Shown piece by piece: positions 33,301 to 64,000 of a stretch of DNA of 64,000 nucleotides. The notes below the pieces were generated by a model. That model did not search any database. It saw only the letters and a program-made list of their open reading frames with translations, and was not told where the DNA came from. The stretch's first letter is position 1; each line of letters starts with the position of its first letter. Both the position numbers and the translations under genes were made by a program. Origin of the DNA: Protula sp. h YS-2021 (lineage: Eukaryota > Annelida > Polychaeta > Sabellida > Serpulidae); NCBI GenBank assembly GCA_949752745.1, contig OX457028.1, forward strand, positions 24,368,927 through 24,432,926, read 5' to 3'.

Positions 33301-34383
33301 TCAGCCTGTAATGGTCGTTTCTGAAGCCACGAACGGTCCTAATGAATATAAGCCAGACAATTCATCTTGAGAAAAATCTTTCAGATAGTATTTAACAAAC
33401 GAGTTGGGGGAAACCCAACAACCTGTTTTTAATATATCCGAAAGGGACACGTTGCGTACCGCCCTGAGGGAATTGGCTACTTGCCTTACCTGATGGGCTT
33501 TGATGTTTGATTCCCCTAACGGGTTAGGGTCGATTTGTGCATCGTCATAGGCTGCCAAAATGATCCTTTTAATATAATTTGAGATCGACTGTTTCGAAAG
33601 ATCTTTGTTAAATTTCGGCATAAACGAAATGATGAGAGCCTTCTGATTATCTGATCGGTAGGCCTCTGACATTTCCAAATACTGTTGCAGCGCTTTGACG
33701 GGACACAAAGAGACCAGACCGTCTGAGTCGGGGTCATCTGGTAGGGATGGGAGAGTAATGTGATCGAACGTTCCCATCCCTTGGGTCATGATGTGGGTTT
33801 TTCCCATGAATCCTGCTCTAGGGACTAGGGTGACCTTCTCCCATGTACCCTTATCTTTATTTACCTTTCTGTCTAGGGCATGGATTTCGCCTCTTCTTTT
33901 GCCCGAAGCTAAGGCCAATAAAAACGTGAATCTTAATGTTGCGTTTTTTGCTGAAATCACGTCCTTACTAAATATATCTGGGCGCTGAAGATACTGTAAG
34001 ACTATTGATAAATCCCACTGCGCTATGTTGGATGGGCAGGGTGGGGAGCTTACTTTAAAATGTCTTACTAGCTGTGATAGGGAAGTATCTTCGCCCGGGT
34101 CGTAGCCTGTAGACGCTTTGAGTCTTGACCCTATAGCGGCCCTATAGCCCTCGATGGAACTTACCTTTAATTTCACCTCCGTGAAAAGGTGATCGAGGAA
34201 ATCCGCTACCACTGCTGGGCTAGCCTGAAACGGATCTAGCTTAGAAGTGCTACACCAAGCGGCAAATTTATTCCACTGCGACCTGTAAACTTTGGCCGTT
34301 GAACCCTTGTGACTGTTTACTATTTTCTCTCTCACCTGCTTAGAAAAACCCTTGTTTTTCAGAAAGGACTGGTCAGACACCAT
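33301..34383 (-). CDS. DIRS copy A tyrosine recombinase (integrase)
   Basis: 360 residues from the ATG at 34383, which overlaps the end of the RT frame. An N-terminal SAM-like core-binding domain (about residues 20-110, 'STAKVYRSQWNKFAAWC') precedes the catalytic domain. Catalytic residues are visible: Arg in 'ASGKRRGEIHALD' (about 163-164), His297-x-x-Arg300 in 'KAHQVRQVANSL', and Tyr in 'SFVKYYLKDF' (332-333). The enzyme would insert the circular DNA copy without target duplication. The same frame stays open upstream to 36258, across most of the RT gene, so the true start is uncertain. Confidence 0.88.
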   Translation of the reverse strand: MVSDQSFLKNKGFSKQVREKIVNSHKGSTAKVYRSQWNKFAAWCSTSKLDPFQASPAVVADFLDHLFTEVKLKVSSIEGYRAAIGSRLKASTGYDPGEDTSLSQLVRHFKVSSPPCPSNIAQWDLSIVLQYLQRPDIFSKDVISAKNATLRFTFLLALASGKRRGEIHALDRKVNKDKGTWEKVTLVPRAGFMGKTHIMTQGMGTFDHITLPSLPDDPDSDGLVSLCPVKALQQYLEMSEAYRSDNQKALIISFMPKFNKDLSKQSISNYIKRIILAAYDDAQIDPNPLGESNIKAHQVRQVANSLRAVRNVSLSDILKTGCWVSPNSFVKYYLKDFSQDELSGLYSLGPFVASETTITG

Positions 34384-36473
34384 AGGTGGAGGTTCAGTAA
34401 GCGAGGGGAGGGGTGGAAGTGATGCCAATGGGGTTGTGATAGCAACTCGTTGTGGCATGGGATCGGTATCGACCTTACTACCTTGCAATGGAGTAGGAGG
34501 GCGAACCATGGGGCTTCCGGTGTCCATGGGGCAATGAGTAATAGGAACGGTGGTTTCAACTCGATTACTCTCTGCAGGACTTGCCCTAAGATTGCTTGTG
34601 GGGGAAAGGCATACAGTACCTCGTCCCGTGGCCACTGACAATTGAGAGCGTCTACTGCCCAAGCTGCTGGGTCCGGGCAAGGAGACACGTACCGGGGAAG
34701 TTGGGTGGTCATCGCGTTTGCAAACAGATCCAGAGTCGGGGCACCCCATGGGGATTGGTGTGTCACCCACTGAAAGGACCGAGGGGATAGGCACCACTCG
34801 GTGTTGATAACTTGACCCTGTCTGGAGGCTAAGTCCGCTAGGACGTTTAATTTCCCGGCCAGGTGACGGGCGGAAACGGTCACCTGTTCCTCCCTGGCCT
34901 TTGAAAGAATTTGGAATGCAAGTTTGGACAGGGATCGTGATTTGGTGCCCCCCTGCTTGTTGAGGTAAGCTATGGCTGTGGAGTTGTCTAACCGAAAAAG
35001 GACTGCCTTGTTTCTGAGTTGGTTGGTCAGCTTGATTAGGGCAATCCAGACCACCCGAAGCTCCAGCCAGTTTATGTGGTAGGACTGAAGCGAGGGTGGC
35101 CATTTGCCCTTCCATACCTGACCATTCCAATAAATTCCCCACCCCGCATGGGACGCATCGGTCTGAATCTCTATCTCCGGGGTGGGGGGCTGAAATGGCA
35201 TTCCTTCGGACATAATTAGAACATCGCACCACCACTGTAGGGCTTGTAGGGTTACCTGTGAAACTTGCATCCTCGCTGCGGGTGAACGACCCTGATGCAA
35301 CGCCCATCTTACCTGGCTTTGAAATGGCCTGTAATGGAGACGGCCCAGGGGGACTGTCTTCTCTGTTGCCACTAACAGGCCGAGGAGCGATTCCATGGCC
35401 TGTAATCTCACCTTCTTTCCTGGGGAAATACCTTTTATGGCATCTGCAATTCTCTGGCGGCGTTCTGGCGTAGGGAACGCCTTTGCTATTGCCAGATCCC
35501 AAAACTCCCCTAGAAAGGTAATGGACTGTTTGGGGGTTAGTTCGGACTTGGCTAGGTTTACTACTAGACCTACCTCTAGTGCCTTGCGAACTAAAGACAT
35601 TGTATGATTCTCGGTTACCTGCCTGTCTTGATTCGCCAGAAACCAGTCGTCCAGATACTGAAAGACTAACATCCCTTCTAGCCGTGCCCATGTTTTCAGT
35701 ACTTTCATGACCTTGGAGAAAACGTACGGGGCCGTAGCCAGACCGAAGGGAAGTGCCAGAAACCAAAATCGTCTTTTCCCTACTTGAAAGGCTAGAAATT
35801 TTCTTGCCGAGCGATGGAGAGGAATATGGAGGTAAGCATCGGAGAGATCTATGGAGGTACCCCACATCCCTTCCCGTAATGACCCTTTTATCACCTGGGC
35901 CGTGTCCATCTGAAAGGTGATCACTCGGAGAAAACCGTTTATGGGGGAAAGGTCGATTACCAGCCTCCACCCTCCGGATTTCTTGGGAACCAGAAAAACT
36001 CTGCTGAAAAAACCCATTTGATTTTCTGGCATTTCCTCTATCGCCTGTTTTTGAGACAAGCTCAGTAGCATTTCTTGGAGAGCTCGGTCTTTTTCTGACC
36101 CCTTGGCGTAAGAGGTGACTAGTTGTCTTGGCGCATGGGCGGTTAGGGGAATAGGGCACCTGAGCCCGTTCCGGTCTCGTTTGAAAGGTAGGGAGTAACC
36201 TCTCTTTAACCAACGTACTACCCTTCGAGACGCCCCCATTTCTGCCCATTGCTGCCAAAACTTTCCTAGTCTTCCTCCTACGGGCAAGGAGGCGTTTAAG
36301 GAAAGTAAATTTTCCAAGTCTCTTAAGTTTGCTAAAGTATCGCCAGGAGATAAGGGAATCTCGTGACGGTACTTTGGTTGGCTGCTACCTGAACGACTGT
36401 GGAGCCGGACCCTCTGTCTTGCTGCCGGGGCTGGGTTTCGGTTTCTTGACAGGGGGCTGTTGTGGTTGCGCAC
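34359..36473 (-). CDS. DIRS copy A reverse transcriptase-RNase H-methyltransferase-like polyprotein
   Basis: 704 residues, starting inside the end of the gag-like ORF (89-nt overlap, different frame). RT core: 'KKSGGWRLVIDLS' (164-176), 'SIDLSDAYLHIPL' (207-219) and the catalytic 'YLDD' box (273-276). RNase H: Asp439 in 'QTDASHAGWG', Glu471 in 'NWLELRVVW', Asp496 in 'RLDNSTAIAYL' and Asp547 in 'LNVLADLASR'. The C-terminal 125 residues ('PTLDLFANAMTTQLPRY', 'APWTPEAPWFALLL') match the domain that DIRS elements carry after RNase H, described as similar to phage N6-adenine methyltransferases. No frame break seen. Copies the element RNA into DNA in the host cell. Confidence 0.92.
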   Translation of the reverse strand: MRNHNSPLSRNRNPAPAARQRVRLHSRSGSSQPKYRHEIPLSPGDTLANLRDLENLLSLNASLPVGGRLGKFWQQWAEMGASRRVVRWLKRGYSLPFKRDRNGLRCPIPLTAHAPRQLVTSYAKGSEKDRALQEMLLSLSQKQAIEEMPENQMGFFSRVFLVPKKSGGWRLVIDLSPINGFLRVITFQMDTAQVIKGSLREGMWGTSIDLSDAYLHIPLHRSARKFLAFQVGKRRFWFLALPFGLATAPYVFSKVMKVLKTWARLEGMLVFQYLDDWFLANQDRQVTENHTMSLVRKALEVGLVVNLAKSELTPKQSITFLGEFWDLAIAKAFPTPERRQRIADAIKGISPGKKVRLQAMESLLGLLVATEKTVPLGRLHYRPFQSQVRWALHQGRSPAARMQVSQVTLQALQWWCDVLIMSEGMPFQPPTPEIEIQTDASHAGWGIYWNGQVWKGKWPPSLQSYHINWLELRVVWIALIKLTNQLRNKAVLFRLDNSTAIAYLNKQGGTKSRSLSKLAFQILSKAREEQVTVSARHLAGKLNVLADLASRQGQVINTEWCLSPRSFQWVTHQSPWGAPTLDLFANAMTTQLPRYVSPCPDPAAWAVDALNCQWPRDEVLYAFPPQAILGQVLQRVIELKPPFLLLIAPWTPEAPWFALLLHCKVVRSIPIPCHNELLSQPHWHHFHPSPRLLNLHLWCLTSPF

Positions 36474-38622
36474 TCGGCTTAGACGGTGCTGGAGAGGACT
36501 GTTGTGGTCTCTTCCTCTTCAGTGGACGTTTGAAGGAGGAGCGAGACATCCTGGACATCAGGGCATAATCTTGCGAAAGCGAACGACTTTCCTGGTTCAC
36601 CCTCTCTATCTCGGCGGGAGGAAATAGTTCTCGTTCCTCCAGGATAGGGGCATGACGCAGGTCCCGCAAACCTTTGACACTAGACCAGCAGTGCTGGAGA
36701 AAGGCATCTCGACGTAAGTAGACCATTGAAGTCATCAAAAAAGTGGAAAGTTTGACCACGTCTCGGGTAGCTAAGGCCAGGCATTCCATCAATTTAGCAG
36801 ACACGGGATCACTAAGGCGAAGTTCTTCCCAACGCGACTTTAGTGCTTTAAGTGCATGATCTTGAAAAGACATAATGTTCAGGATGTGGCGAGAAGACGC
36901 CTCGATGGTCTTTGCGTCTTTCTCCACTAATGGAATGTCTGAGTCACTACGCACTGTGGGCATCCAGACTGTACGCTTCACGGGCTGCTCCAGTGCCTCT
37001 AGGGGAATTTTTTCATCCGCTGACCGATATGGTCCTGGTCGTACTGAGCAATGTTTAGATAAATGGAAACGCGACAACGTGCGACCCTCACCGGCGTCCA
37101 TCTTCTTGAACTCTTTCGCGCGGACCGTGACAGCATGAGCAATGCCCTCACTGGTGGCTAGTGCGATAAACGAGTCCTGTTGTGGTGGAGCTGCCTGAGA
37201 TGTCATCCGAATGGGCGGATCCTCCTTATCTAAATTTGGGGAGCCACAGGAGACCTCTGCTAAGCGGGCTATCTCTTGAATGGCATCCCTGAACGGCACG
37301 TCTTCTGGTGCAATCGTAGAAGCAGAACTCGAGGGGGCCGCGTCCTCGACCGATGGGGCAAGATCTGGTGGAGAGGGAGTACGGATGGGCCGTCTGCCCG
37401 CTGCCGCTGGATCTCTCCAAAGTCGATGCCCTTGGCCGGGAGAACGCACCTGCTCCACTGCCCGTAACGGTAAATGACAACGGGAATGTACTGACGTACC
37501 CTCGGATTCTTCTTCCCCGTCTTCCACCTCCGACTCCTGTTCATCAGATGCTGCTTCTGGGAGTTGGGATTGTGAAAAATGTGACATGTGGGGTTCCCCT
37601 ACTGGGGTGTAAATTTCTTTCTCCCTGTTGCTTGGGACTGCTGCTAGGGGAGAATTTTCCATCGGCCCGATTTCCTCATCATCTTCCAGCAATGCGGAGA
37701 CTTGGCCCGAAAGGGGCACGCCCACGGAATCCTCCTCGCTGATGGTGACCGTTTCGGGAATATCCACGTTAGAGTCCAGCGGGAGGTGAGGTACAGGCGA
37801 GCCCGATATCGCTGCCACTGACTGAATTTCCGGAGGAGGACGAGAAACCGTAGCTGATGGTTTAGGCTTTTGCCTTTGACTAAGCAGACTCTCCTGCTTC
37901 TGAACTTGACTCTGTAAATCCAAAAGTTGTTTTTGCAGTTGCGATTGCATCGACAAAAACGCTGAAAATTCACTCGGGAGACGCTGCAGCTGAGGAGGGG
38001 GGGATAAGTCCTCTCGCGGGGGAATGCCTAACTGGCCTGTAAACGCCGAAAGTACTGTTCCCGTATCCTTATGCGTTAAAGTCACTTGTTCCTCAGACGG
38101 GGACTTAAACGCCCCTCCTGGACTGCCACTGGGTTTCACTCTAGGAGGTGAGGCCCATGCCTCGCGGAGACGATCCCGTTCTTGCCCTTCCGGGATGTCC
38201 AATTCTGCTACAGTCTCAGAAAATGCACGTCCTTTACTCTTGGACTTTTTATGTCTCTTAACTGGCGTAGCGGATTCCGATTCTGCACCAGTGTCTACGT
38301 GTACGGGGGTGGAGACCTGGCCCAGAATAACGGAGCTAGCCTTCTTCATGGTATCACGAATAAATTCACGAGTAACAAACGAAGCTGACGAAAGGAATTT
38401 GCGCTTATCCCTCCTGCGCTCGTTCTTGGTCCTATTCCGTAATAGGACTTTCCAATCCTCTGGAGAAAGATGTAGACACTCGCCACACTGGCTGTCTGGC
38501 TCACACAGAGGTATTCCACTATTCCGTCTACAGCGGTCGCAGATGGAGTGGGGGTTACACGCGGTTGGAGGATGGATACACTGAGGCAGTAACGGTGGAG
38601 AATGTAGACTGGCCTCTGTCAT
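36385..38622 (-). CDS. DIRS copy A gag-like ORF1
   Basis: 745 residues from the ATG at 38622. The frame is open a little further upstream, but a strong 3' splice site (ttgcatttcag) ends 2 bases before this ATG and copy B has the same arrangement, so I take this start. An N-terminal zinc-binding-like cluster has Cys28-x2-Cys31-x8-Cys40-x5-Cys46-x2-Cys49. A basic stretch follows ('RRRDKRK'), then a long disordered acidic/Pro-rich middle. The C-terminal domain is conserved between the two copies ('IMSFQDHALKALKSRWEEL', 'LMTSMVYLRRDAFLQHCW'). The end is basic ('KRPLKRKR'). Likely a nucleic-acid-binding structural protein. Confidence 0.85.
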   Translation of the reverse strand: MTEASLHSPPLLPQCIHPPTACNPHSICDRCRRNSGIPLCEPDSQCGECLHLSPEDWKVLLRNRTKNERRRDKRKFLSSASFVTREFIRDTMKKASSVILGQVSTPVHVDTGAESESATPVKRHKKSKSKGRAFSETVAELDIPEGQERDRLREAWASPPRVKPSGSPGGAFKSPSEEQVTLTHKDTGTVLSAFTGQLGIPPREDLSPPPQLQRLPSEFSAFLSMQSQLQKQLLDLQSQVQKQESLLSQRQKPKPSATVSRPPPEIQSVAAISGSPVPHLPLDSNVDIPETVTISEEDSVGVPLSGQVSALLEDDEEIGPMENSPLAAVPSNREKEIYTPVGEPHMSHFSQSQLPEAASDEQESEVEDGEEESEGTSVHSRCHLPLRAVEQVRSPGQGHRLWRDPAAAGRRPIRTPSPPDLAPSVEDAAPSSSASTIAPEDVPFRDAIQEIARLAEVSCGSPNLDKEDPPIRMTSQAAPPQQDSFIALATSEGIAHAVTVRAKEFKKMDAGEGRTLSRFHLSKHCSVRPGPYRSADEKIPLEALEQPVKRTVWMPTVRSDSDIPLVEKDAKTIEASSRHILNIMSFQDHALKALKSRWEELRLSDPVSAKLMECLALATRDVVKLSTFLMTSMVYLRRDAFLQHCWSSVKGLRDLRHAPILEERELFPPAEIERVNQESRSLSQDYALMSRMSRSSFKRPLKRKRPQQSSPAPSKPSAQPQQPPVKKPKPSPGSKTEGPAPQSFR

Positions 38623-39497
38623 ATCTGAAATGCAAGCAGAGAAAAACAACGGTGAGAATATGTAGTATAAAACAACGCACAAAACTACATTTCTCCGTGC
38701 TTTGCTTCAACTGCAAGCTTTAACCTTCCAAGCTGTGTTTACAATTGCTTAAACACCGCAATAACTCGCTGGGTCTAAGGAAAGACGAAAAGAGATGCTT
38801 CCCGGAACGATAACGTTCCCGGGCCGTAACGGGCTGGACCGTAATGGCACCACCCGTGTCGGATATGGATCTCTCTTGCCTCAGATGCACCTGGGACCAT
38901 CGGACCGTAACGGGTTTTGTGAATCCCGTTGGACCAGAATGGTCTTCTCGCACCCGTGACCGTAAGACCACAAAGGGAAAACGGTCCTGGCAAAGAAAAT
39001 GACCCTCAGACGTCACAGAAAACGTCTCTTTTCGTCGGAGAACGCTGTCAGACTTGCAGAACCTGCTCTACAAAGACTGAGAAGCGACCCATGGAGTAAA
39101 GCTTAAGCAAAAACTGGCCATTTCCGCGATGACACAGCTGGCTGGTAAAGCTTGGAGTCTGATCAGGTCCAGCAGCCTGAAAAGATCCTACTCCTAGACG
39201 AACTGAGGTGGAACTGGTAAGTTCCTCGATCTGAATGAAAGTGGAGAAAGAGGCGCACTTCTCGGGACTAGGAAAGTGTCTCCGTGATCGTGCAAACTCA
39301 ACCTAATCAGACCGAAGAGTAAGATGGCGAATAAACACACTTCGGCTCCATAAATTTATCCCAACGCACAATAATAGATAAAACAATCCATTAGGCAGTG
39401 AATTAAGTAAAAAATGAAGCAATTCGCACCTTAAACCAGTTCCCTTGCTGCAAAAAACCGGCAGCACACAGAATGGCGTGTTGTATCGACGCCACGC
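38623..39497 (-). promoter_or_regulatory. DIRS copy A 5' leader with conserved 3' splice site
   Basis: The leader between the terminal repeat and ORF1. On the minus strand it ends with 'ctctgcttgcatttcag' (AG at 38625-38626) directly before the start codon, suggesting a 5' untranslated intron. Multiple 'ggaccgtaacggg'-type motifs occur at 38815-38980. Confidence 0.5.
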
Positions 39498-41542: not shown

Positions 41543-42625
41543 TTAGGTTTTAATTGCTGCTTCCGCTGCAATGAAAGGACCTAAAGAATAAATACCCGAA
41601 ATTTCGTCTTGGGAAAAATCTTTAAGGTAGTACTTAATAAACGCGTTAGGTGAAGCCCAACAACCCGTTTTGAGTATCTCTGATAATGACACGTTATGAA
41701 TGGCCCTAAGGGAGTTAGCCACTTGCCTGACTTGATGGGCTTTGATGTTTAACTCTGTATGAAGGGACGTGTCTGACTGAGATTTTTCATAGGCCGTGAC
41801 AATTATCTCTTTAATGTACCGGGAAATAGTTTGTTTCGAGAGATCTTTATTAAATCCCGGCATATAGGAGATGATTAGTGCATTTTGGTTAGAAGACCTA
41901 TAAGCATCGGAAATCTCTAAGTATTGACGCAATGCTTTCACAGGACATAAAGAGATTAGTCCCGTGGGGACTTGTTCTTCTGGAAGGGATGGGAGTGCTA
42001 TGTGATCAAATGTGCCCATCCCGTGGGTTTTGATGTGGGTTTTACCCATAAAGCCTGACCTGGGCACGAGGAAAACCTTATCCCAGGTCCCATTTTCCTT
42101 GCTCACTACTCTGTCCAGCGCGTGAATCTCGCTTCTCCTTTTGCCCGACGCCAGGGCCAAAAGGAAAGTAAACCTTAGAGTTGCATTCTTTGCAGATATC
42201 AAGGTTTCCCCAAATATATCCGGTCTTTGCAGGAAACGAAGCACTAAGGCCAGATCCCATTTGGCTATGTTGGGCGCACTCGGAGGAGAATTGACTTTAA
42301 AATGTCTAATTAATTGAGATAGGGCCGAATCTTCCCCTGGGTCGTACCCTATGGAAGCTTTGAGTTTAGAGCCTATGGCTGCTCTGTATCCCTCAATGGA
42401 GCTCACTTTCAAGTGTTCGTTAGAAAATAAGTGGTCCAGAAAGTCCGCTACTACAGGTGGGGACGCTTGGAATGGGTCTATTTTAGACTTACTGCACCAT
42501 GAGGCAAATTTATTCCACTGGGCCCTGTATACCTTGGTTGTGGATTGTTTGTGGCTATTGACTATTTTATCCACTACCTTTTCCGAGAATCCTTTTTTCG
42601 TCAAGAAGGATTGGCCAGGCACCAT
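41543..42625 (-). CDS. DIRS copy B tyrosine recombinase
   Basis: 360 residues from the ATG at 42625, collinear with copy A. Catalytic residues are present: Arg in 'ASGKRRSEIHALD', His-x-x-Arg in 'KAHQVRQVANSL', and Tyr in 'AFIKYYLKDF'. The frame stays open upstream to 44596, overlapping the RT gene as in copy A. The recombinase itself looks intact despite the broken RT. Confidence 0.88.
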   Translation of the reverse strand: MVPGQSFLTKKGFSEKVVDKIVNSHKQSTTKVYRAQWNKFASWCSKSKIDPFQASPPVVADFLDHLFSNEHLKVSSIEGYRAAIGSKLKASIGYDPGEDSALSQLIRHFKVNSPPSAPNIAKWDLALVLRFLQRPDIFGETLISAKNATLRFTFLLALASGKRRSEIHALDRVVSKENGTWDKVFLVPRSGFMGKTHIKTHGMGTFDHIALPSLPEEQVPTGLISLCPVKALRQYLEISDAYRSSNQNALIISYMPGFNKDLSKQTISRYIKEIIVTAYEKSQSDTSLHTELNIKAHQVRQVANSLRAIHNVSLSEILKTGCWASPNAFIKYYLKDFSQDEISGIYSLGPFIAAEAAIKT

Positions 42626-44808
42626 AGATGCAGGTTCAGTAGGTGCGGGGCCGGGTGAAAGTGTTGCCAATGTGGTTGGGATAAAAGACCCTTGTGGCAT
42701 GGGATCGGAAGTGACTTGACCACCGAGCATTGAAGTAACAGAGCAAACCATGGGGCTTCTGGTGTCCACGGAGCTACCAGGAGGAGAAATCGGGGTTTCA
42801 ATTTGATTATTCTCTGGAGGACTTGGAGTAGGATTGCCTGTGGTGGGAAGGCGTACAGTACCTCCTGTAATGGCCATGGGCAATTGAGAGCGTCTACAGC
42901 CCATGCCGATGGGTCTGGGCAGGGAGAGACAAATTTGGGTAGTTGTGTCGTTCTGGAGTTTGCAAACAGGTCCAGGGTGGGAGGACCCCACGGTGACTGA
43001 TTTACTACCCATCGGAAAGATGAGCGTGCTAGGCACCATTCCGTGTGGATTACTTGGCCTTCCCTGGAGGCTAGGTCTGCCAGAACATTGAGTTTTCCCG
43101 CCAAATGTTGGGCTATGAGGGTGATATGACATTGACGGGCTCGGTATAGGATCTTGAAAGCTAGTTTCGAGAGTGATAGGGATCTGGTCCCCCCCTGTTT
43201 GTTCAGGTATGCTATTGCTGTGGAATTGTCCAACAGAAATAGGACTGATTTGTTTCTGAGTAGATGGTTCAGTTTGTTTAGGGCTATCCAGACTACCCGT
43301 AACTCCAGCCAATTGATATGATGTTTGTTCAGAGAGGGAGACCATATCCCTTTCCATACTTGGCCCTGACAGTGTATCCCCCAACCTTTTTGTGACGAGT
43401 CCGTTTGAAGTTCTATTTCTGGGGCTGGGAAATGAAAAGGGACACCCTCGGTCATTACGATGGGATCGCACCACCATTGTAGAAGGGATTGTGCCTTCTC
43501 GGGAATTTCCGTTTTGGCTTGTGGGAACCTTCCTTGCCTCAGTGCAATCTTGACCCGTCTTTGGAAGGGTCTGTAGTGTAGGCGGCCCAGGGGGACCGTC
43601 TTTTCGGTTGCCACTAAAAGGCCTAGAAGGGATTCCATTGCCTACAAACGTACTTTTCGACCGATGGGAATTGCATTTATGGCTTGAGAAATTTTTAGGC
43701 ACCTTTCTTCGGTGGGAAATGCTCTGGCATTTTTTAGATCCCATTTCTCCCCGAGAAATATGATGTTTTGCTTGGGAGAGAGTTCTGATTTGGGTAGATT
43801 GACCACCAGCCCGACTTGCAGGGCTTTTCGTACCAACCTTACCGTCTGTCGGTGGGCTATCTCCCTGTCCCGATGGGCTAACAGCCAGTCGTCCAGATAT
43901 TGGAAGACTAGCATGCCTTCTAGACGAGCCCACGCTTTCAGAACTCTCATTACTTTTGAGAAAACGTATGGGGCTGTGGAGAGGCCGAAGGGAAGTGCCC
44001 GAAACCAGAAACGTTTTGTGCCCACTTGGAAGCCTAGAAATTTTTTGGCTGATTGATGTAATGGGATATGGAGGTAAGCGTCGGATAGATCTATCGAAGT
44101 ACCCCACATCCCTGCTTGTAGGCTTTCTTTTATGATTTGGGCCGTGTCCATTTGAAATGTCGTTGTCAGAAGAAACTCGTTGAGGGTGGAGAGGTCTATG
44201 ACTAGTCTCCACCCCCCTGATTTTTTGGGAACTAAGAAAACCCTGCTGAAGAAAGCTGTTTGAGCTTCGGGCATTTCCTCTATGGCTTCTTTTCTTAGTA
44301 GTGATAAAAGCATCTCTTGCAGAGCCAGATCCTTTTCTGAACCCTGGACGTAGGAGGTGGCAAGATTTTTTGGAGCCTGACTGGTGAGAGGTATGGGAAC
44401 TTTGTGTCCCCTCTGATCCCGTTTGAATGGGAGGGAGTAGCCATTTTTTAGCCAACGGACTACCCGGCGGGAAGCCCCAATTTTCGCCCAATCTTGCCAA
44501 AATTTGCCTAGCCTTCCTCCTACGGGCCAGCCGTCGTTGTAGGATTGCAAATCTTTTAAGTTTTCTGCATTTATTAAAGTATCGCCAAGAGACCAAGGAA
44601 TCTCTGGGCGGTACTTTGGTTGGCTGCTACCTGCTCTGCTGCGGCGATGGACCCTCCTGCCTGGTGCCGTAATTCTGTTTCGGCTTCTTGGCTGGGGGCG
44701 GCCGAGGCTGCGCGTTGGGCTTTGACTGCTCTGAGCTCTGGTGCTGGGACCTCTTGCGCTTGAATGGACGTCGGATAGAGGACCGAGACATTCTCGACAT
44801 GAGTGCAA
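42601..44808 (-). pseudogene. DIRS copy B RT-RNase H-methyltransferase ORF with premature stop
   Basis: It encodes the same domains as copy A. The first part (44808-43642, 388 codons) carries 'KKSGGWRLVIDLS', 'SIDLSDAYLHIPL' and the 'YLDD' box. The second (43638-42601, 345 codons) carries RNase H ('LQTDSSQKGWG', 'NWLELRVVW', 'LLDNSTAIAYL', 'LNVLADLASR') and the methyltransferase-like tail ('PTLDLFANSRTTQLPKF'). They are separated by one TAG (plus-strand 43642-43644) where copy A has a Gln codon in the same frame. This is a single-base nonsense change, with no other break seen. The copy is probably unable to make full-length enzyme itself. Confidence 0.88.
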
Positions 44809-46849
44809 AGTCTTGCGACAGGGAACGGCTCTCCTGATTGACTTTCTCGATCTCAGCCGGGGGAAATAACTCCTTCTCGCCGAGGATGGGGGCGTGGCGT
44901 AACTCTCTTAGTCCTTTAACGCTGGACCAACAATGTTGTAGGAATGCGTCCCGTCTAAGAAAAACCATGGACGTCATCAAAAATGTTGCCAACTTGACCA
45001 CGTCTCTAGTTGCCAGGGCCAAACATTCCAGTAGCTTGGAGGTCACCGGGTCACTGAAGCGTAAATCGTCCCATCGCGTTTTCAGAGCTTTTAAAGTATG
45101 GTCCTGAAAAGACATAATATTGAGAACGTGGCGGGAGGTTGTCTCAATAGTTTTGGCGTCCTTTTCCACCAGAGGTATGTCTGAGTCGTTACGGACGGAC
45201 GGCATCCAGACTGTGCGTTTGGCGGGCTGCTCTAAAGCTTCTGTCGGCAACAAATCGTCCGATGGCCGATATGGGCCCGGTCTCACTGCGCAATGTCGTG
45301 AAGCGTGAAAACGGGACAAAGCACGCCCTTCCGCGTTGTCCATCTTCTTAAACTCTCTTGATCGCACTAATATGGCGTTGGCTATGCCCTCGCTAGTCGG
45401 AAGTGCGATGAATGGATCCTGATTCATGGGAGCTGTTTGGGAGGTCATCCGAATCGGGGGATCGTCCTTGTCGAGAACTGGAGAACCGACTGTAACGTTC
45501 GCCAGGCGAGCGATCTCCTGGATTACGTCTCGGAAAGGTACATCTTCCGGAGTCATCGTAGACGACGTGACTGAAGGCGTTGCATTCTCACTACGAGGCG
45601 CAAGGTCCGGTGGAGACGGGGTCCTAATTGGGCGTCTTCCAGCCGCTGCTGGATCTTTCCAGAGTTTTTGACCACTACTCGGAGACCTGACGTAATCCAT
45701 CTCTCGGAGAGGAAGTCGAAACTGGGCTGATGGGAGCGCATCTCCCATTTCCTCATCCGGCCCCTCGTCCTCGGATTCCTGATCTTCCGAGCTTTGCGCT
45801 GACTCTTCCCTATTCTCCACAGCTTCCGAACGTGAGGGAGCTGCGCAGGTGGGAGTATAAATCTCCCGTTCTCGATTAAGTGGGATCGACGACAGAGGCG
45901 AGGTCACCGAAGGAAAAAAGTCGTCATCCTCTTCCCCGGCTAGGCCTGATACTTGACCTGACGGGGGAAACTCCGAAGAACCGGCGTCGCTAATAACTTC
46001 TACTTCCGGTGGCTGACTGTTCGGGCCCAAACCAGAAGGTGGTGAATGGGACGGAGATGGATGCGTCTCCGGAGGAGGGCGTGAAATCGTAGCCGATGGT
46101 TTACGTTTACGCCGCGATTCAGAGGTCTGCTTCTTGAACTGTTGTTGTAGTTCTTGGAGTTGTTTCTGTAATTGAGTCTGTAACGACAGAAACGCAGAAA
46201 ATTCACTGGGCAAACGAGGAACCTGAGGAGTAGGGGGGGGTTCCATCTGAGATGGGATCCCCAGTTGACCCGACATCGTCGAGAAACTTGCACCCGAATC
46301 CGTGTGAGTAACCGTGACCGGCTCTGGTGTGGGTACTGTCTCCGAAACTGTTTCTTTTTTAGCACCTTCCGTAGGACTAAGAGCCCAAACCTTCCTCAAA
46401 GTCTCTTTTTCCTTACCCTCTGGTACGTCTAGTTCAGCTACCGTTTCCGAGTATGCTCTCCGCTTACGGGATTTTCTGCCTTTCTTATCCACTGCGAAGG
46501 CATCCGACTCAGAGCCTGTATCCATTCGCACCGGTGTGGAGACCTGTTCTAAGATCACTGAACTGGCCTTACGCATAGTCCCCTCTAAAAATTCTGGCGT
46601 GAGGAACGGTGCAGAAGATAAGGCTTTCCTTTTATCCCGCCTGCGGTCGTTGCGAACCCTGTTTCTGTAAATGAGTTTCCACTCCTTCCCCGAAAGGTGG
46701 TGACACTCAGCGCACGTATTCCACTCGTCGCAGAGGGGCAAGTTTGTTCTCCGTCTACAACGGTCGCAGACCGAATGAGGGTTAAGAGCTGAGGGCGGAT
46801 GTGTACACTGCGGAAGCGTCGGTAGGTCCCGCAGACCGGCTTCTGTCAT
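44627..46849 (-). CDS. DIRS copy B gag-like ORF1
   Basis: 740 residues from the ATG at 46849. It is collinear with copy A ORF1: the Cys28/31/40/46/49 cluster, 'RRRDKRK', a disordered middle, and the conserved C-terminal block ('IMSFQDHTLKALKTRWDDL', 'LMTSMVFLRRDAFLQHCW'). The start is chosen because 'cttgtttttcag' ends 2 bases before it, as in copy A. The end overlaps the RT frame. No breaks seen. Confidence 0.85.
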   Translation of the reverse strand: MTEAGLRDLPTLPQCTHPPSALNPHSVCDRCRRRTNLPLCDEWNTCAECHHLSGKEWKLIYRNRVRNDRRRDKRKALSSAPFLTPEFLEGTMRKASSVILEQVSTPVRMDTGSESDAFAVDKKGRKSRKRRAYSETVAELDVPEGKEKETLRKVWALSPTEGAKKETVSETVPTPEPVTVTHTDSGASFSTMSGQLGIPSQMEPPPTPQVPRLPSEFSAFLSLQTQLQKQLQELQQQFKKQTSESRRKRKPSATISRPPPETHPSPSHSPPSGLGPNSQPPEVEVISDAGSSEFPPSGQVSGLAGEEDDDFFPSVTSPLSSIPLNREREIYTPTCAAPSRSEAVENREESAQSSEDQESEDEGPDEEMGDALPSAQFRLPLREMDYVRSPSSGQKLWKDPAAAGRRPIRTPSPPDLAPRSENATPSVTSSTMTPEDVPFRDVIQEIARLANVTVGSPVLDKDDPPIRMTSQTAPMNQDPFIALPTSEGIANAILVRSREFKKMDNAEGRALSRFHASRHCAVRPGPYRPSDDLLPTEALEQPAKRTVWMPSVRNDSDIPLVEKDAKTIETTSRHVLNIMSFQDHTLKALKTRWDDLRFSDPVTSKLLECLALATRDVVKLATFLMTSMVFLRRDAFLQHCWSSVKGLRELRHAPILGEKELFPPAEIEKVNQESRSLSQDFALMSRMSRSSIRRPFKRKRSQHQSSEQSKPNAQPRPPPAKKPKQNYGTRQEGPSPQQSR

Positions 46850-47808
46850 ATCTGAAAAACAAGCAGAAGAAAAAACACTGATGAGTAAACTGTACATGTC
46901 CCCAGTAGACAGGTAAAGCATACAAGTAACAGATATTAATATTCTGGGCATTTAACGAGTGACAGTAGGCAGTACGACGACCACTCTCTTTCATCCAGAC
47001 GTTACTAACGTATTTATTGGCGTTTCAGGAATTCAGAACCAGATAAAACGCGAAACGGGACACCTGGGCCCATTTTCGGGATCCTCGGTCGATCCCGAAA
47101 ACGGGATCTGCCCATGAGCCCGAAAACGGTACCCGTCCTTGGTGCCTAAAGATGGGATCCTCTATGGATGGGATCCTAATCCCGACTTAGGCCCGTCCCC
47201 TACGTGGGGGGGGGGCATAAACGGGCTTCCAGATGCCATTTACGGCACCCTGGTGCCGTTTATGGGCTACAGCAGTCCCATAAACGGGCTAAAACTTAAA
47301 AATTCACCAAAATTCGCCAGAACGCCAAAAAACGTTGAAAGTCTGGACCAAAGAAAGTAGCGTCTAGAGGAAACTGGACGAAACTAACTGGTCTCATAGG
47401 AGTGTCTGATACAGCAAAAACGGGCCATAACGCGATGACACCTAAGCTGTAGCTGACTGGGAATCAAAGCAGGCAAAGTGGGCTGCAGAGACTCAACCAA
47501 CTCCGAGGCGATGTGTGCACGAACTAGACTAAGAAGACACGTCCTGTAGCTTCCGAGTGGAGAAGAGAGGCACACTTCCCGGGACAAAAAGTCTCCGCTA
47601 CGTGTAAACTCAACAACTACCAGACCGAAGTCACGAGTGCGACCGTATTGCTCTAATCCTGAATCAAATTAATCCAACATTACAGAGGATGAAGAATATC
47701 CTTAAATGCAATGAAATAGAAAGTTAAAAGCAAAATCGCACCTTGCCTAGTTCCCCTTTTTCAACGAAAAAGTGGAGCACACAGAATTGCGTGTGTTGTC
47801 AACACCAC
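46850..47808 (-). promoter_or_regulatory. DIRS copy B 5' leader with conserved 3' splice site
   Basis: On the minus strand it ends in 'ttcttctgcttgtttttcag' (AG at 46852-46853) next to the ORF1 start. It contains repeated 'gatcccgaaaacggg'-type motifs at 47060-47290. These are specific to copy B, whereas copy A has 'ccgtaacgg' motifs in the same place. Confidence 0.5.
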
Positions 47809-52412: not shown

Positions 52413-52483
52413 AGAAAGTTCACGAACAACCAGCAGTCATGGTGGGGCAGCGAGTGGTCTCACTTCCAACCTCATGCTTACAG
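52413..52483 (+). CDS. BAHCC1/TNRC18-like: BAHCC1/TNRC18-like protein, exon 5
   Basis: Acceptor 'caatatttcag|agaaag', phase 2 in and phase 1 out. The shortest form ends at the donor at 52484 (CTTACAG|GTAGGC) and encodes RESSRTTSSHGGAASGLTSN then LMLTG. 'GLTSNLMLTGG' (with the first residue of exon 6) matches a conserved block of BAHCC1. Three further donor copies at 52505, 52526 and 52547 follow at exact 21-bp spacing in the same frame, so longer forms ending at 52504, 52525 or 52546 are possible. Confidence 0.82.
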
Positions 52484-52560
52484 GTAGGCTCACAATGCTT
52501 ACAGGTGGGTTCACGATACTTAAAGGTAGGCTCACACTGCTTACAGGTAGGCTCACAACA
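52475..52560 (+). repeat. 21-bp tandem repeat carrying 5' splice sites
   Basis: Units of the type 'tgcttacaggtaggctcaca' repeat four times with a few substitutions. GT dinucleotides fall at 52484, 52505, 52526 and 52547, in contexts cag|gtaggc, cag|gtgggt, aag|gtaggc and cag|gtaggc. The unit is seven codons and remains open (RLTMLTG, GFTILKG, RLTLLTG). Confidence 0.92.
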
Positions 52561-54956: not shown

Positions 54957-55663
54957 GTGAGTTCACATGTTTTCGCGCAAAAAACTGAAAAACAAAATCA
55001 AATTTTTGGGAATACAGATGAAGTGTTGTACGTTATTTCGTAACATTATCCCCTTTTGCAGGCCAACCGACTGTGCTGGACGTCTGTAGTCACATCAAGC
55101 GGGGGGGGGGGGGGGGGGGGAGGGGATATCTATTGCCTTTGTTTATGTATACACGCGAAGTACATGCAAACTTTAACTAATATTGGTGTGTGCGAAGTAC
55201 AAACTATCGTTTTAGTCTCAAGACCATAAGATGAGTAAAATATAGGTGGGGTTTTTGCTGCCCAGCCAGAGTCTATTTTCTAATAAGCCTAGGGCACCTC
55301 GGTTCTTATGGGAATAAATTATGCCTGTTGTGACGCTTTCAACTATCTTTGCATTGGCTGAAACCAAGTTAAGGCGAGTGAAAAATTTTAGTTTCGAAAT
55401 AACGCAGTTTAATTCAAATCTAGGTAGAACCCATGCGAGAGTGCAGAAGGCGCCCTAAATTTTACTAGTTATTTTTGCGAGACACCATTGAAAGGGACAA
55501 TATTGAAAAGGACAACATTGAAAAGGACAACATTGAAAGATAACTGACGTTACTCGACGGTTTCGTCGATACATTGAAAGCGATTTCAAATAAATCTTTT
55601 TGGGTTTATGGTGAAAATAAAATTGAGCGAAAAAAGAAGTCTTCATAACTTCTTGATTGACAG

Positions 55664-57882: not shown

Positions 57883-58179
57883 ACATGCAGCCAAGCAGTG
57901 GCACGACGGCGTCCACAAGCGAGACGAGCCATAAGCCACGGCACAGCATCTCTGACGAGCCGAGCCGTAAGCAGACGACACGCCACAGCATCTCCGACGA
58001 GCCGAGCCGTAAGCAGACGACACGGAACAGCCTCCCCGACGAGCCGAACCGTCAGAGGACGACACGACACAGCATTACTGACGAGCCGAGCCGTAAGCAG
58101 ACGACACAACAAAACCTGTCCGACGAACCAAGTCGTAAGCAGACGACACGGCACAGCCTCTCTGACGACTCCGATATGG
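57883..58179 (+). CDS. BAHCC1/TNRC18-like: BAHCC1/TNRC18-like protein, exon 10 (minisatellite-encoded repeats)
   Basis: 297 nt: acceptor 'gttgtttgtcag|acatg', donor 'GATATGG|GTGAGC', phase 1 both sides. After a short leader it encodes about five 14-residue repeats of the form HS(I/L)SDEPSRKQTTR, ending 'HSLSDDSDM'. The DNA period is 42 bp (57930-58172). Repeats alternate acidic (SDEP) and basic (SRKQTTR) and offer serial Ser/Thr sites. I recognise no equivalent in vertebrate relatives. It is kept as an exon because both splice sites and both phases fit exons 9 and 11. Confidence 0.75.
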
Positions 58180-59785: not shown

Positions 59786-60220
59786 GTAAAACAGGCAGTC
59801 GATATAAAGATCTTGCGGTTCTTTGTTTCTCCGCTATCATGTTTGGCATTTATTATAATGGAGTCGGATCTGCATCAAGTGTGATGTAAGTGCTGTGTAT
59901 GATGGTCTAAAGATTTTACTTGTTTTGATATAACACGCATAGAGCAATAGATATTAATATTGGGTTGTTGCAAAGGATCCTTTTTTAGTGCTTTTGTTTG
60001 ATGAGACCGTGTCAAGGAAATGAATATTTGGGCAACATCTACACTTATGGCGAATATGCATTTCCTCACCCAACAATGTTTCCATTCAGTGCACATATCT
60101 GTCTAAAAATAGTTGATAAATACTAAACACACTATTTTATAGGGCTATGTATTGTCCTATTTTTCTTGGGAAGTCAATGATTGCAGTAATGAAAAACGCC
60201 TAATGAAAACTGGAAATTTT

Positions 60221-60221
60221 A

Positions 60222-60272
<51 letters not shown>

Positions 60273-60274
60273 GA
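60221..60274. repeat. (TAA)n microsatellite
   Basis: About 54 bp of TAA/AAT trinucleotide repeat in the intron between exons 11 and 12. Confidence 0.95.
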
Positions 60275-60598
60275 AGAACACAATCATCAGTACAAAATAT
60301 TTCATATCTTTCTGTGTACTGGAGTCTGTGTGCATTGGTCGTTTTAGTCTTTGGAGATAGTGAAATGTGTAAGTTTTTTGTCTTCCTAATTCAAAATTTT
60401 AATGTGAATGACGGCATGCAAAACTCTTAATTTATCTTATTTGAGTGAAGAGTACTACAAAAGTAATAATTTAAACAATTGGTAAATTTATCGGAAACTT
60501 TATTCGAAAAGGGTGAAGAAAGTGGGGTTTTGAAATGTTCATAAACAAAAGAAAACAGGAATACAGGCTTCATGTAGCTAAGATTTCTTTCTCTTCAG

Positions 60599-60903
60599 GT
60601 ATGTCGGGGAAAAGGCTGAACACTTCGACATCAAGTTTAGGTATTTTAGCTCAATATGCCTCGTCTCAAATTGAGGTCAACCAGGATGGGTCAGCAAAGC
60701 TGAAGAAGAAACGTAAACCATCAACGAAAAGTGATGAATCCAACTATATTCCGTCGAAAAAACGCAAGCCCGGGCGACCTAAAAAGTACAGCAAAGACCA
60801 AGCCGTAACCCAGACCTTGGTGTCGAAATCCAGCAAGAATTTCTCGTTCTTCAACATTGGAAAAGCTGTAAAACGGATGAAAGCGTTAAAGGAAGGCAAC
60901 AAG
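60599..60903 (+). CDS. BAHCC1/TNRC18-like: BAHCC1/TNRC18-like protein, exon 12 (AT-hook)
   Basis: 305 nt: acceptor 'tttctttctcttcag', donor 'GGCAACAAG|GTACAG', phase 1 to 0. It encodes a Lys-rich region with 'SKKRKPGRPKKYSKDQ', a classical AT-hook core (GRP flanked by Lys/Arg), preceded by 'LKKKRKPSTKSDESNY', a likely nuclear localisation signal. AT-hooks bind the minor groove of AT-rich DNA. The position after the coiled coil fits BAHCC1/TNRC18. Confidence 0.88.
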
Positions 60904-61657
60904 GTACAGAGATTTATTTGTTACCGTGCAGAGGGGTGCGGGGGGGGGGGGGGGGTATTGAATCTTCGTCTGCATATATGTATGTGTGTGTGTATGTATG
61001 TAAACTAAAATTTCGGATGATTTTCTGCACGACCCTAAGCCAGGCGCCCATTCTGATTTTTCGATGTCCCACATTGGATTCGCTGCTTTACACACATTTC
61101 AGGCATCAGATGATTTTATGTCGTTTCTTGTTCAATTATTTTGAAATTTGGCATGAACGTTCCCTGGGAAGTTCTCCAATCACCTTATATTTTTATTCGC
61201 GATTTGGCCAAAATTGCCATAAACAGCCCAATTTCATTAAACACCAAAATACTGCTTTTCCACTAAATTCAGTCCGATCTCTTTGAAATTTGGCAGAAAA
61301 GTTTCCCCAGCACGTCCACTACCCAATTTTATCAAAACTTTGTAGATTTCTCGTTTCAGCTTTTTTATGTCTTCGATTATACGGCCTTTACGGCTGCTGA
61401 AATTAAAAATTCTTTCGGGTAATTTTTGAGCACTGCTTATTTGTGATAACGACTGCTAATTCATACGAGGAACTTAAAAAATGGTTACCGAGCTCGTAAC
61501 CAGTTTAACAACTAACCACTGAGATGATATTTTTGCTTTTTTATATATCATTATATATAACAGGTGTGTAAAGAGCTAACCAGTGCCACTTAGTTATGAA
61601 ATATGTACACCTGCCGCTCTAGTTTGTTTGGGAATTATCTTGTTTGGTATATTACAG
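60904..61657 (+). other. intron, no features
   Basis: Contains a G run (60939-60955) and a short TATG/TG-rich tract near 60975-61000. Nothing else recognised. Confidence 0.7.
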
Positions 61658-61978
61658 GGCAGCTTATTACAAGCAATAGGCGAGTGGAGCCGCCGGCGTT
61701 CGGAGCGTATTTTCCTCAGCGATGCCGTGTCACCTGCGAAGAGCACGTCCTCCTCCACCTCGTCGTGCCCGGTGTCCGAAAGCCCCTCTTCGTCTTCCGC
61801 TCGTATCAAAGCATCGACACTGTCGCTTCCTCAGATGGCGCAGGAGGGTGCTGGGAGTGTGGGCGGCAAGGCTAGGGTCCCTACTCTAGCGGAAAGGGTC
61901 CTCAAGCCTGGCATCATGGCGAGTGCTCATAAACCTGCTCAAAGCATGACGCCTTTCAAAGCAGATAGCTCTCAACAG
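61658..61978 (+). CDS. BAHCC1/TNRC18-like: BAHCC1/TNRC18-like protein, exon 13
   Basis: 321 nt: acceptor 'ggtatattacag|ggcagc', donor 'CAACAG|GTAGGA', phase 0 both sides. It encodes a Ser-rich, disordered 107-residue segment ('SPAKSTSSSTSSCPVSESPS') followed by 'KARVPTLAERVLKPGIMASA'. No known fold. The frame is open further upstream with a hydrophobic stretch, but that part lies in the intron. Confidence 0.8.
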
Positions 61979-62251
61979 GTAGGATCGTTACTACAAATAA
62001 CCAAATACGGTGATACAAGCCCTGGGAATAGACAGTGTAAAACCCGAAATATTCATTGTCTGTCAGATAGTAAAGCTGATCTGCCGTTAATAAGAAATCG
62101 TTGGTTACGTTTACCAAAACTGCTTTATATCAACCTTTAGTTCACCAGATATTCACAAGTTCCTCGCTTGACAAGCGTGGCACACAACTCTTACAGGTAA
62201 GAACTCATGGATAAACACTAACAACAGAGGTATTTCTTTTCATGTCACCAG

Positions 62252-62432
62252 AAGCCGTCTGTGACCGAAGCAAGGGAAAGGTACAGCATTCGTAGCAACT
62301 CGTCCGAGTTTGATTCGGATTCCGACGACAATTCGTCCGATTCCGATGAGGTGTTGCCGGAAGTGGGAAAAGACGAAACGGCAGCGGTGTGGGAGCAGAC
62401 GGACGACACTCGCTCGACGTCGCCAGCTCCAG
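62252..62432 (+). CDS. BAHCC1/TNRC18-like: BAHCC1/TNRC18-like protein, exon 14 (acidic)
   Basis: 181 nt: acceptor 'cttttcatgtcaccag', donor 'CCAGCTCCAG|GTAAGG', phase 0 to 1. It encodes an acidic, serine-rich stretch ('SSEFDSDSDDNSSDSDEVLP'), like the acidic tracts before the Tudor-like domain in vertebrate relatives. The downstream intron contains the 43-bp acceptor array. Confidence 0.85.
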
Positions 62433-62737
62433 GTAAGGCTGTCTCGTGCCGGCGAGATCACATGCCTTACACGTGGGCAGCGAATGTGAACACGACGGCT
62501 CACGTAGTGGTGACGTAGTGCGCAGAGGTCTCTATCACGTGATGTTAATTTAACCAAGAAACCCAAATAAGAGAGTATTCGTTGTATTCAAGTAAGCCTC
62601 GTAACGGATTGGGGAGCTGGAGGAATGTTTTAGGATAGACTTCACCATTCTGCAGTTAATAACAAGTACAAGTGTGGGTGGGGGAAGACATGTCCTTCCA
62701 CACTGATCTTGCCATTCTAGTTGTTGATGTTTTACAG

Positions 62738-63726
62738 ATGTGAAGTCGAGTGTTCTGACCCAGGCTGAGTTGTTTTACAGATGTGAGGTCCAGTGTTCTG
62801 ACCCAGGCTGACTTGTTTTACAGCTGTGAGGTCCAGTGTTCTGACCCAGGCTGACTTGTTTTACAGATGTGAGGTCCAGTGTTCTGACCCAGGCTGACTT
62901 GTTTTACAGATGTGAGGTCCAGTGTTCTGACCCAGGCTGACTTGTTTTACAGATGTGAGGTCCAGTGTTCTGACCCAGGCTGACTTGTTTTACAGATGTG
63001 AGGTCCAGTGTTCTGACCCAGGCTGACTTGTTTTACAGATGTGAGGTCCAGTGTTCTGACCCAGGCTGACTTGTTTTACAGATGTGAGGTCCAGTGTTCT
63101 GACCCAGGCTGACTTGTTTTACAGATGTGAGGTCCAGTGTTCTGACCCAGGCTGACTTGTTTTACAGATGTGAGGTCCAGTGTTCTGACCCAGGCTGACT
63201 TGTTTTACAGATGTGAGGTCCAGTGTTCTGACCCAGGCTGACTTGTTTTACAGCTGTGAGGTCCAGTGTTCTGACCCAGGCTGACTTGTTTTACAGATGT
63301 GAGGTCCAGTGTTCTGACCCAGGCTGACTTGTTTTACAGATGTGAGGTCCAGTGTTCTGACCCAGGCTGACTTGTTTTACAGATGTGAGGTCCAGTGTTC
63401 TGACCCAGGCTGACTTGTTTTACAGATGTGAGGTCCAGTGTTCTGACCCAGGCTGACTTGTTTTACAGATGTGAGGTCCAGTGTTCTGACCCAGGCTGAC
63501 TTGTTTTACAGATGTGAGGTCCAGTGTTCTGACCCAGGTTGACTTGTTTTACAGATGTGAGGTCCAGTGTTCTGACCCAGGCTGACTTGTTTTACAGATG
63601 TGAGGTCCAGTGTTCTGACCCAGGCTGACTTGTTTTACAGCTGTGAGGTCCAGTGTTCTGACCCAGGCTGACTTGTTTTACAGATGTGAGGTCCAGTGTT
63701 CTGACCCAGGCTGACTTGTTTTACAG
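62738..63726 (+). repeat. 43-bp tandem array of 3' splice sites, 23 units
   Basis: 989 bp equals exactly 23 x 43 bp. Each unit is the first 35 bp of exon 15 (starting 'atgtgaggtccagtg') plus 'ttttacag', and holds two branch-point-like 'ctgac' motifs. Units differ little: the first is the most diverged ('gaagtcgag'), three units begin 'ctgtgagg' instead of 'atgtgagg' (62824, 63254, 63641), and one has 'ccaggttgac'. Intronic if only the last acceptor (63725-63726) is used. Confidence 0.95.
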
Positions 63727-63917
63727 ATGTGAGGTCCAGTGTTCTGACCCAGGCTGACTTGTCGGATGGCCTGAAGATCCTTTACTTCATGGAGGGACTA
63801 TTTTATGAGGCGCGCGTGAAGGAAATCCAGCCGCCGGATGTGTATGGAGTAATGGTGAAGGGTGAGCGTGGCAACAGGCCGCACATATTATCCAGGGAAG
63901 AGCTACTCAATGATGCG
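63727..63917 (+). CDS. BAHCC1/TNRC18-like: BAHCC1/TNRC18-like protein, exon 15 (Tudor-like domain)
   Basis: 191 nt: acceptor 'gttttacag|atgtg' (the last of 24 identical-type acceptors), donor 'GATGCG|GTAGGT', phase 1 to 0. It encodes a Tudor-like barrel segment: 'LSDGLKILYFMEGLFYEARV' then 'KEIQPPDVYGVMVKGERGNR' and 'PHILSREELL'. The 'PPD.YGV...GERGN.PHI' core is highly characteristic of BAHCC1/TNRC18. The gene continues past the window; a BAH domain would be expected further on. Confidence 0.92.
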
Positions 63918-64000
63918 GTAGGTTTCCATGGCAACGAGACTATACTATGATTATGTAGTGGCTTTATTTTAAAAAAGTAGCAATGAAAATTTTGACGATT
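63918..64000 (+). other. start of the next intron
   Basis: Intron sequence after the exon 15 donor, to the window edge. Confidence 0.8.

Follow-up and report, generated by a model that had tools for sequence, protein, structure and literature searches.

A 43-bp minisatellite has copied the border between intron 14 and exon 15 of a predicted BAHCC1/TNRC18 orthologue, and places 24 in-register 3' splice sites ahead of a Tudor-domain exon. It is a genuine array, large and clean, of a kind already known, the tandem intron-exon border copies named 'mirages', which have rarely been described, and there are signs that such arrays recur in this genome. The reading that we favor, with a probability of about 0.75, is that of an inert minisatellite produced by border duplication, in which the last acceptor would be picked by exon definition and wrong choices would be passed to nonsense-mediated decay (NMD). 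The anatomy of the array, the effect of each acceptor on the reading frame, the matches of exon 15, and the common starting point of 21 orthologues count in favor of this reading; the preference for upstream acceptors in human genes, the weaker score of the last acceptor, and a donor-like motif in 20 units count against it. All positions are those of the window, the whole 64,000-nt stretch of DNA that was analyzed. Exon numbers follow an earlier, sequence-only reading of the window, and the gene model is derived from sequence rather than from transcripts.

Structure of the array

TRF delimited the array at 62728-63762 (+), with 24.1 copies at 98% matches and 0% indels in one assembly, and a listing of the units agreed. 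Every unit holds TTTTACAG and the first bases of exon 15. The 24 acceptors end at positions 62737 to 63726, and all 23 spacings between them are exactly 43 bp, confirming the register that the sequence-only reading had described. That reading had also claimed that the border itself was duplicated, which TRF and the unit listing bear out, and that each unit carried 35 bp of exon, a figure that has to be relaxed to about 33–36 (36 nt are identical downstream of most acceptors). Its branch-point-like motifs can be read directly from the sequence as well, most units having two copies of CTGAC. A query made of two units returned at least 23 matches in the 863-Mb genome, and every listed match lay inside this array. 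On the minus strand no long frame crosses the array, the frames there being mostly of 42 codons (42–74).

The consensus is matched exactly by 19 of the 24 units, comprising 18 of the 22 units numbered 2–23 and also unit 24 (63717-63759, +), which the unit listing and tblastn identify as the last copy, with its acceptor ending at 63726 and its exon part coding; edge divergence is found upstream only. Comparison of the units shows unit 1 (62728-62770, +) to be the most divergent, with 3 changes, every one within the exon-like part. An identical A-to-C change just after the AG marks units 3 (62814-62856, +), 13 (at 63244) and 22 (at 63631), at the positions 62824, 63254 and 63641 where a recurring variant had been pointed out, and unit 19 has a single C-to-T change. 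Because three of the four single-base variant units are alike (probability of at least three by chance 0.00024 in a simple simulation), the common variant suggests duplication or conversion of several units at once, in line with the higher-order expansion proposed earlier.

The trinucleotide TGT stands at each edge of the array, a 3-bp microhomology that fits duplication of the border. The array would have begun as a tandem duplication across the border of intron 14 and exon 15, probably at this TGT, and would then have expanded through unequal exchange or slippage, leaving units 1–23 as intron. It is very unlikely that we are dealing instead with an assembly artefact, or with a rare allele where the true or common one has few units. 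The 24 copies do rest on one assembly, and amphioxus BflGb6 provides a precedent, with haplotypes of 6 and 3 units, one of which was misassembled in the draft genome (PMC3087553). However, the array sits in an 89-Mb contig, the variants at units 1, 3, 13, 19 and 22 give it an inner structure, and similar arrays are located at other exon-like frames in the same genome.

Reading frame and host gene

Presumed exon 14 (62252-62432, +; 181 nt) ends in phase 1 at the donor CAG/GTAAGG; it is recognized by its open frame and splice sites, and tblastn found no match between it and homologues. Sequence and frame analysis place intron 14 at 62433-63726 (+), with a length of 1294 nt via the last acceptor and 305 nt via the first, and it is followed by exon 15 (63727-63917, +; 191 nt), with the donor GCG/GTAGGT. 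The phase of exon 14 fits the Tudor frame through the last acceptor only. Read from exon 14, all 23 of the earlier acceptors lead to a stop after 24 codons, 160–1106 nt ahead of the end of exon 15, while the frame from acceptor 24 stays open through to the exon 15 donor. Two claims of the sequence-only reading, that any acceptor except the last breaks the frame and that the Tudor-like domain is reached through the final one alone, are thereby upheld. A coding use of the array was rejected, since reading on from exon 14 meets a stop in the second unit.

Exon 15 encodes SH3_TNRC18, the first Tudor of a tandem Tudor domain, as seen from its matches to the profile PF24912 (8.6e-25) and to the BAHCC1 structure 8ye8 (1e-12). 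The tblastn matches of five homologues to this exon start at positions 63714, 63726, 63732, 63732 and 63741, with the match to Tubulanus beginning at 63726, the last acceptor. Further downstream, tblastn located a second Tudor exon, which begins at window coordinate 64252 after an intron 15 of 334 nt, then BAH exons and the stop codon, with the intervening exons partly resolved. By homology, we take the host gene, a chromatin gene of an invertebrate, to be the orthologue of BAHCC1/TNRC18 ("winged eye"). From the 137 orthologues found, 21 were picked and their Tudor segments excised by local match; every one of these begins to align at the first or second residue of exon 15, and none has a gap over DVRSSVLTQ. 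At residue 3, 14 of the 21 have R and 2 have K, which makes it likely that the R encoded by units 2–24 is the ancestral state and that the K of unit 1 arose later.

The top homologues of the host protein in one search were from Tubulanus and molluscs. Among the best 120 of 725 in a further search were Owenia, Tubulanus, Haliotis, Mytilus and Lineus, behind a Lutzomyia entry that came first by score, with 57% identity across 28% of the region. The window protein is 59.9% identical to that of Mytilus and 53.4% identical to that of Branchiostoma (290 columns). A tree of 22 sequences grouped the deuterostomes with a support of 100, the arthropods with a support of 100, and the two together at 99, and placed the window protein on the spiralian side, where inner support was weak. 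Identity and tree, from this gene alone, argue strongly against an amphioxus host.

Two further minisatellites lie downstream of the gene's stop codon (20 bp x 17 at L009 4389-4737, and 44 bp x 9 at L009 5419-5900). Between its exons are two similar retroelements, presumably DIRS-like, at 33301-38706 (-) and 41543-46951 (-) of the window. Each contains a frame whose matches to tyrosine recombinases are weak and fall below the cut-off, and the first, which is the only one scanned for it, has a reverse transcriptase frame (PF00078, 1e-19). Tandem repeats at 57937-58168 (42 bp), sitting in open frames, and at 55481-55538 (15 bp) both have unit lengths that are multiples of three. A 21-bp repeat in 4 copies, at 52474-52558, contains TTACAGGTAGGC, in which acceptor-like and donor-like sequences occur together; no exon was recognized directly adjoining this repeat.

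Choice of acceptor

The identity of 16 of the 23 earlier acceptors with the last one extends far past the splice site, to at least 42 nt upstream and 36 nt downstream, so that local sequence would be unable to single out the last acceptor, while its position next to the exon body could do so. The sequence-only reading had suggested that the spliceosome might skip the array by an unknown rule, but the rule need not be unknown. Exon definition has been described above flanking intron lengths of ~250 nt; under it, use of the acceptor that is closest across the exon increases, and exons of more than about 500 nt are poorly included when introns are long (PMC9225289). This published mechanism fits the flanking introns here, which at 305–1294 nt and 334 nt both exceed 250 nt. 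The exon measures 191 nt with the last acceptor versus 234–1180 nt with the earlier ones, 16 of which would produce exons of more than 500 nt. On our favored reading, exon 15 would be recognized as a unit, and acceptor 63726 would be used because the exon is defined across its length from its own donor and is shortest with this acceptor. A wrong acceptor would bring in a premature stop, and the transcript would be removed by NMD.

Splice sites were scored with a splice-site matrix, by which the last array acceptor reaches 7.2, below the 7.6–10.8 of four other presumed acceptors in this gene, and the early acceptors reach 5.7–7.2. Scores so close to that of the last acceptor are what one might expect of a functional decoy, in which part of the transcripts would take early acceptors and be degraded, with array length setting protein dose. 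The premature stops behind all 23 early acceptors are placed as NMD expects, and the upstream site is preferred overall in pairs of competing human acceptors, a preference that long introns reduce rather than reverse (PMC9225289). We nevertheless consider a decoy unlikely: we saw nothing to suggest selection for the array, its units differ as little as those of a young minisatellite, and the arrays of amphioxus are reported without disturbance of splicing (PMC3087553).

The donor-like motif GAT/GTGAGG occurs in 20 units and scores 7.2 with the same matrix, near the 7.8 of the exon 15 donor. A unit would then consist of an acceptor, 2 nt and a donor, and the array could conceivably be removed in steps by recursive splicing. 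This is barely credible, since 2 nt (AT) would be left behind at each step and the frame kept only when the number of steps is divisible by three, the base preceding the donor is T rather than G, and introns of 41 nt would be very short. RNA structure was rejected as a selector, as the last four units with the exon start fold no better than shuffled sequences (z +0.96; equalled or surpassed by 167 of 200 shuffles). No known RNA family was found at gathering threshold in 60000-64000.

Similar arrays in the genome

A search of the same genome for a triple-TTTTACAG pattern gave 195+143 matches versus 265+235 for the reversed pattern, in the listed part of which a single dispersed family, along with a few long arrays, carries much weight. 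These counts give no evidence that the acceptor motif is enriched in arrays. From about 100 listed of the 338 matches, on chromosomes C1-C4, 28 arrays were grouped, and the exon-side flank was inspected by eye for all 28; the 32 control arrays went through the codon-score test below only. Four of the 28 lead from the last copy straight into an exon-like open frame, and no such exon was seen in the exon-side flank of the remaining 24.

Homology confirms one of the four, L058, where 3.4 copies of a 38-bp unit, with ~23 exon bases copied, adjoin a predicted EXOC5/Sec10 exon (PF07393, 6.4e-13; PDB 5h11, an entry titled uncharacterized protein, 4.9e-8); the others are candidates by open frame, splice sites and copied border. 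Searches with these three gave nothing: the exon-like frames L044, L051 and L055 had no PDB match, no pooled protein hit, and no Pfam match at cut-off. L059 (41 bp x 12.1) has 12 in-register acceptor-like positions, one of them without AG, and copies about 11 exon bases, and in L060 (22 bp x 14) the acceptor is copied with almost no exon. The fourth array, L061 (31 bp x 8.5, 66% match), is an old, degenerate array that copies about 20 exon bases. Together with L055 (G000:C3:105067400-105069868), it shows degenerate acceptor copies that precede a 151-nt exon-like frame; downstream, to the end of this 2.5-kb stretch, the exon end with its GTAAGT donor is present at 9 exact sites, its own included; both ends of this frame are arrayed. 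Near the EXOC5 exon, an 80-bp unit x2 with GACAG/GTAAGT (L058 291-452) is possibly a donor-side duplication. None of the five unit lengths (43, 41, 38, 22 and 31 bp) is a multiple of three, which is unremarkable with five loci.

Just behind the last motif, 20 of the 29 arrays, the window's included, have a frame that stays open for 120 nt, compared to 11 of 32 controls. A codon score above 10 was reached by 4 of 29 arrays (3 of 28 without the window's own) and by none of the 32 controls; the one-sided p for 3/28 versus 0/32, computed by hand, is about 0.10, which is not significant alone. The EXOC5 exon, although confirmed by Pfam, was missed by this test with a score of -1.3, and L044 was scored in a frame other than the presumed coding one. 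The codon-score comparison leans towards exon-adjoining arrays.

Discussion

Mirages were described in amphioxus as tandem copies of intron-exon borders with splicing reported as normal (PMC3087553, PMC3902484). Data on Adh3 and globin RT-PCR suggest that they leave splicing undisturbed, their edge units escape homogenization, and their haplotypes vary in length (PMC3087553); PGBD5 and TnC were added as mirage genes (PMC3902484). Like the arrays reported for Adh3, BflGb6/BflGb9, PGBD5 and TnC, at 5' or 3' borders, the present one is made of border-spanning minisatellite copies within a protein gene. The end of the intron, the splice site and the start of the exon are all found in register within its tandem units, the gene is a real one, and one unit lies flush with the true exon. 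Its inner units are homogenized as well, and its edge unit has diverged (unit 1), at the upstream edge only. The unit lengths given for Adh3, 10–72 bp, include 43, whereas BflGb6 is reported with 3–6 units of 150–160 bp, compared to 24 copies of 43 bp here, at 98% match. Normal splicing at the amphioxus globin arrays is suggested by RT-PCR, whereas the present array is known from genome sequence alone. The host differs also: with 53.4% identity to Branchiostoma and a split supported at 99, it is most likely not an amphioxus and looks spiralian. Because the name mirage describes a structure, such a host widens the range of the group rather than excluding the array from it.

Internal tandem repeats at exon-intron borders are also reported from human segmental duplications, with 27 intron modifications. 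These are similarly minisatellite-like, with units of about 30 bp, but they have about 4 units on average, and the variable ones are often accompanied by alternative transcripts and new introns (PMC2812944). The human study of 3' splice-site competition likewise deals with acceptors at least 20 nt apart whose proximity affects choice, although in pairs of sites rather than an array of 24 (PMC9225289). We noticed no splice-junction array from a spiralian in the open-access literature, which does not prove that none has been published. What is new here is the extension of splice-junction minisatellites to an apparent spiralian, with 4 of 28 other arrays adjoining exon-like frames.

We put at even odds the broader proposal that splice-junction minisatellites recur as a class throughout the genome of this spiralian, at acceptors and donors alike, and that the spliceosome reliably takes the copy abutting the exon body. 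If this is true, the genome would constitute a natural test series, with arrays of between about 3 and 24 near-equal sites, of how exon definition prevails over scanning for the first AG. Because so many earlier acceptors are identical to the last one beyond the splice site, the array uncouples the effects of sequence and position on splice-site choice, and clean use of the last copy in cDNA would mean that exon definition holds against 23 upstream competitors. In this apparently spiralian genome, minisatellites of this kind may feed intron gain, cryptic exons, allele-length effects, and wrong gene models.
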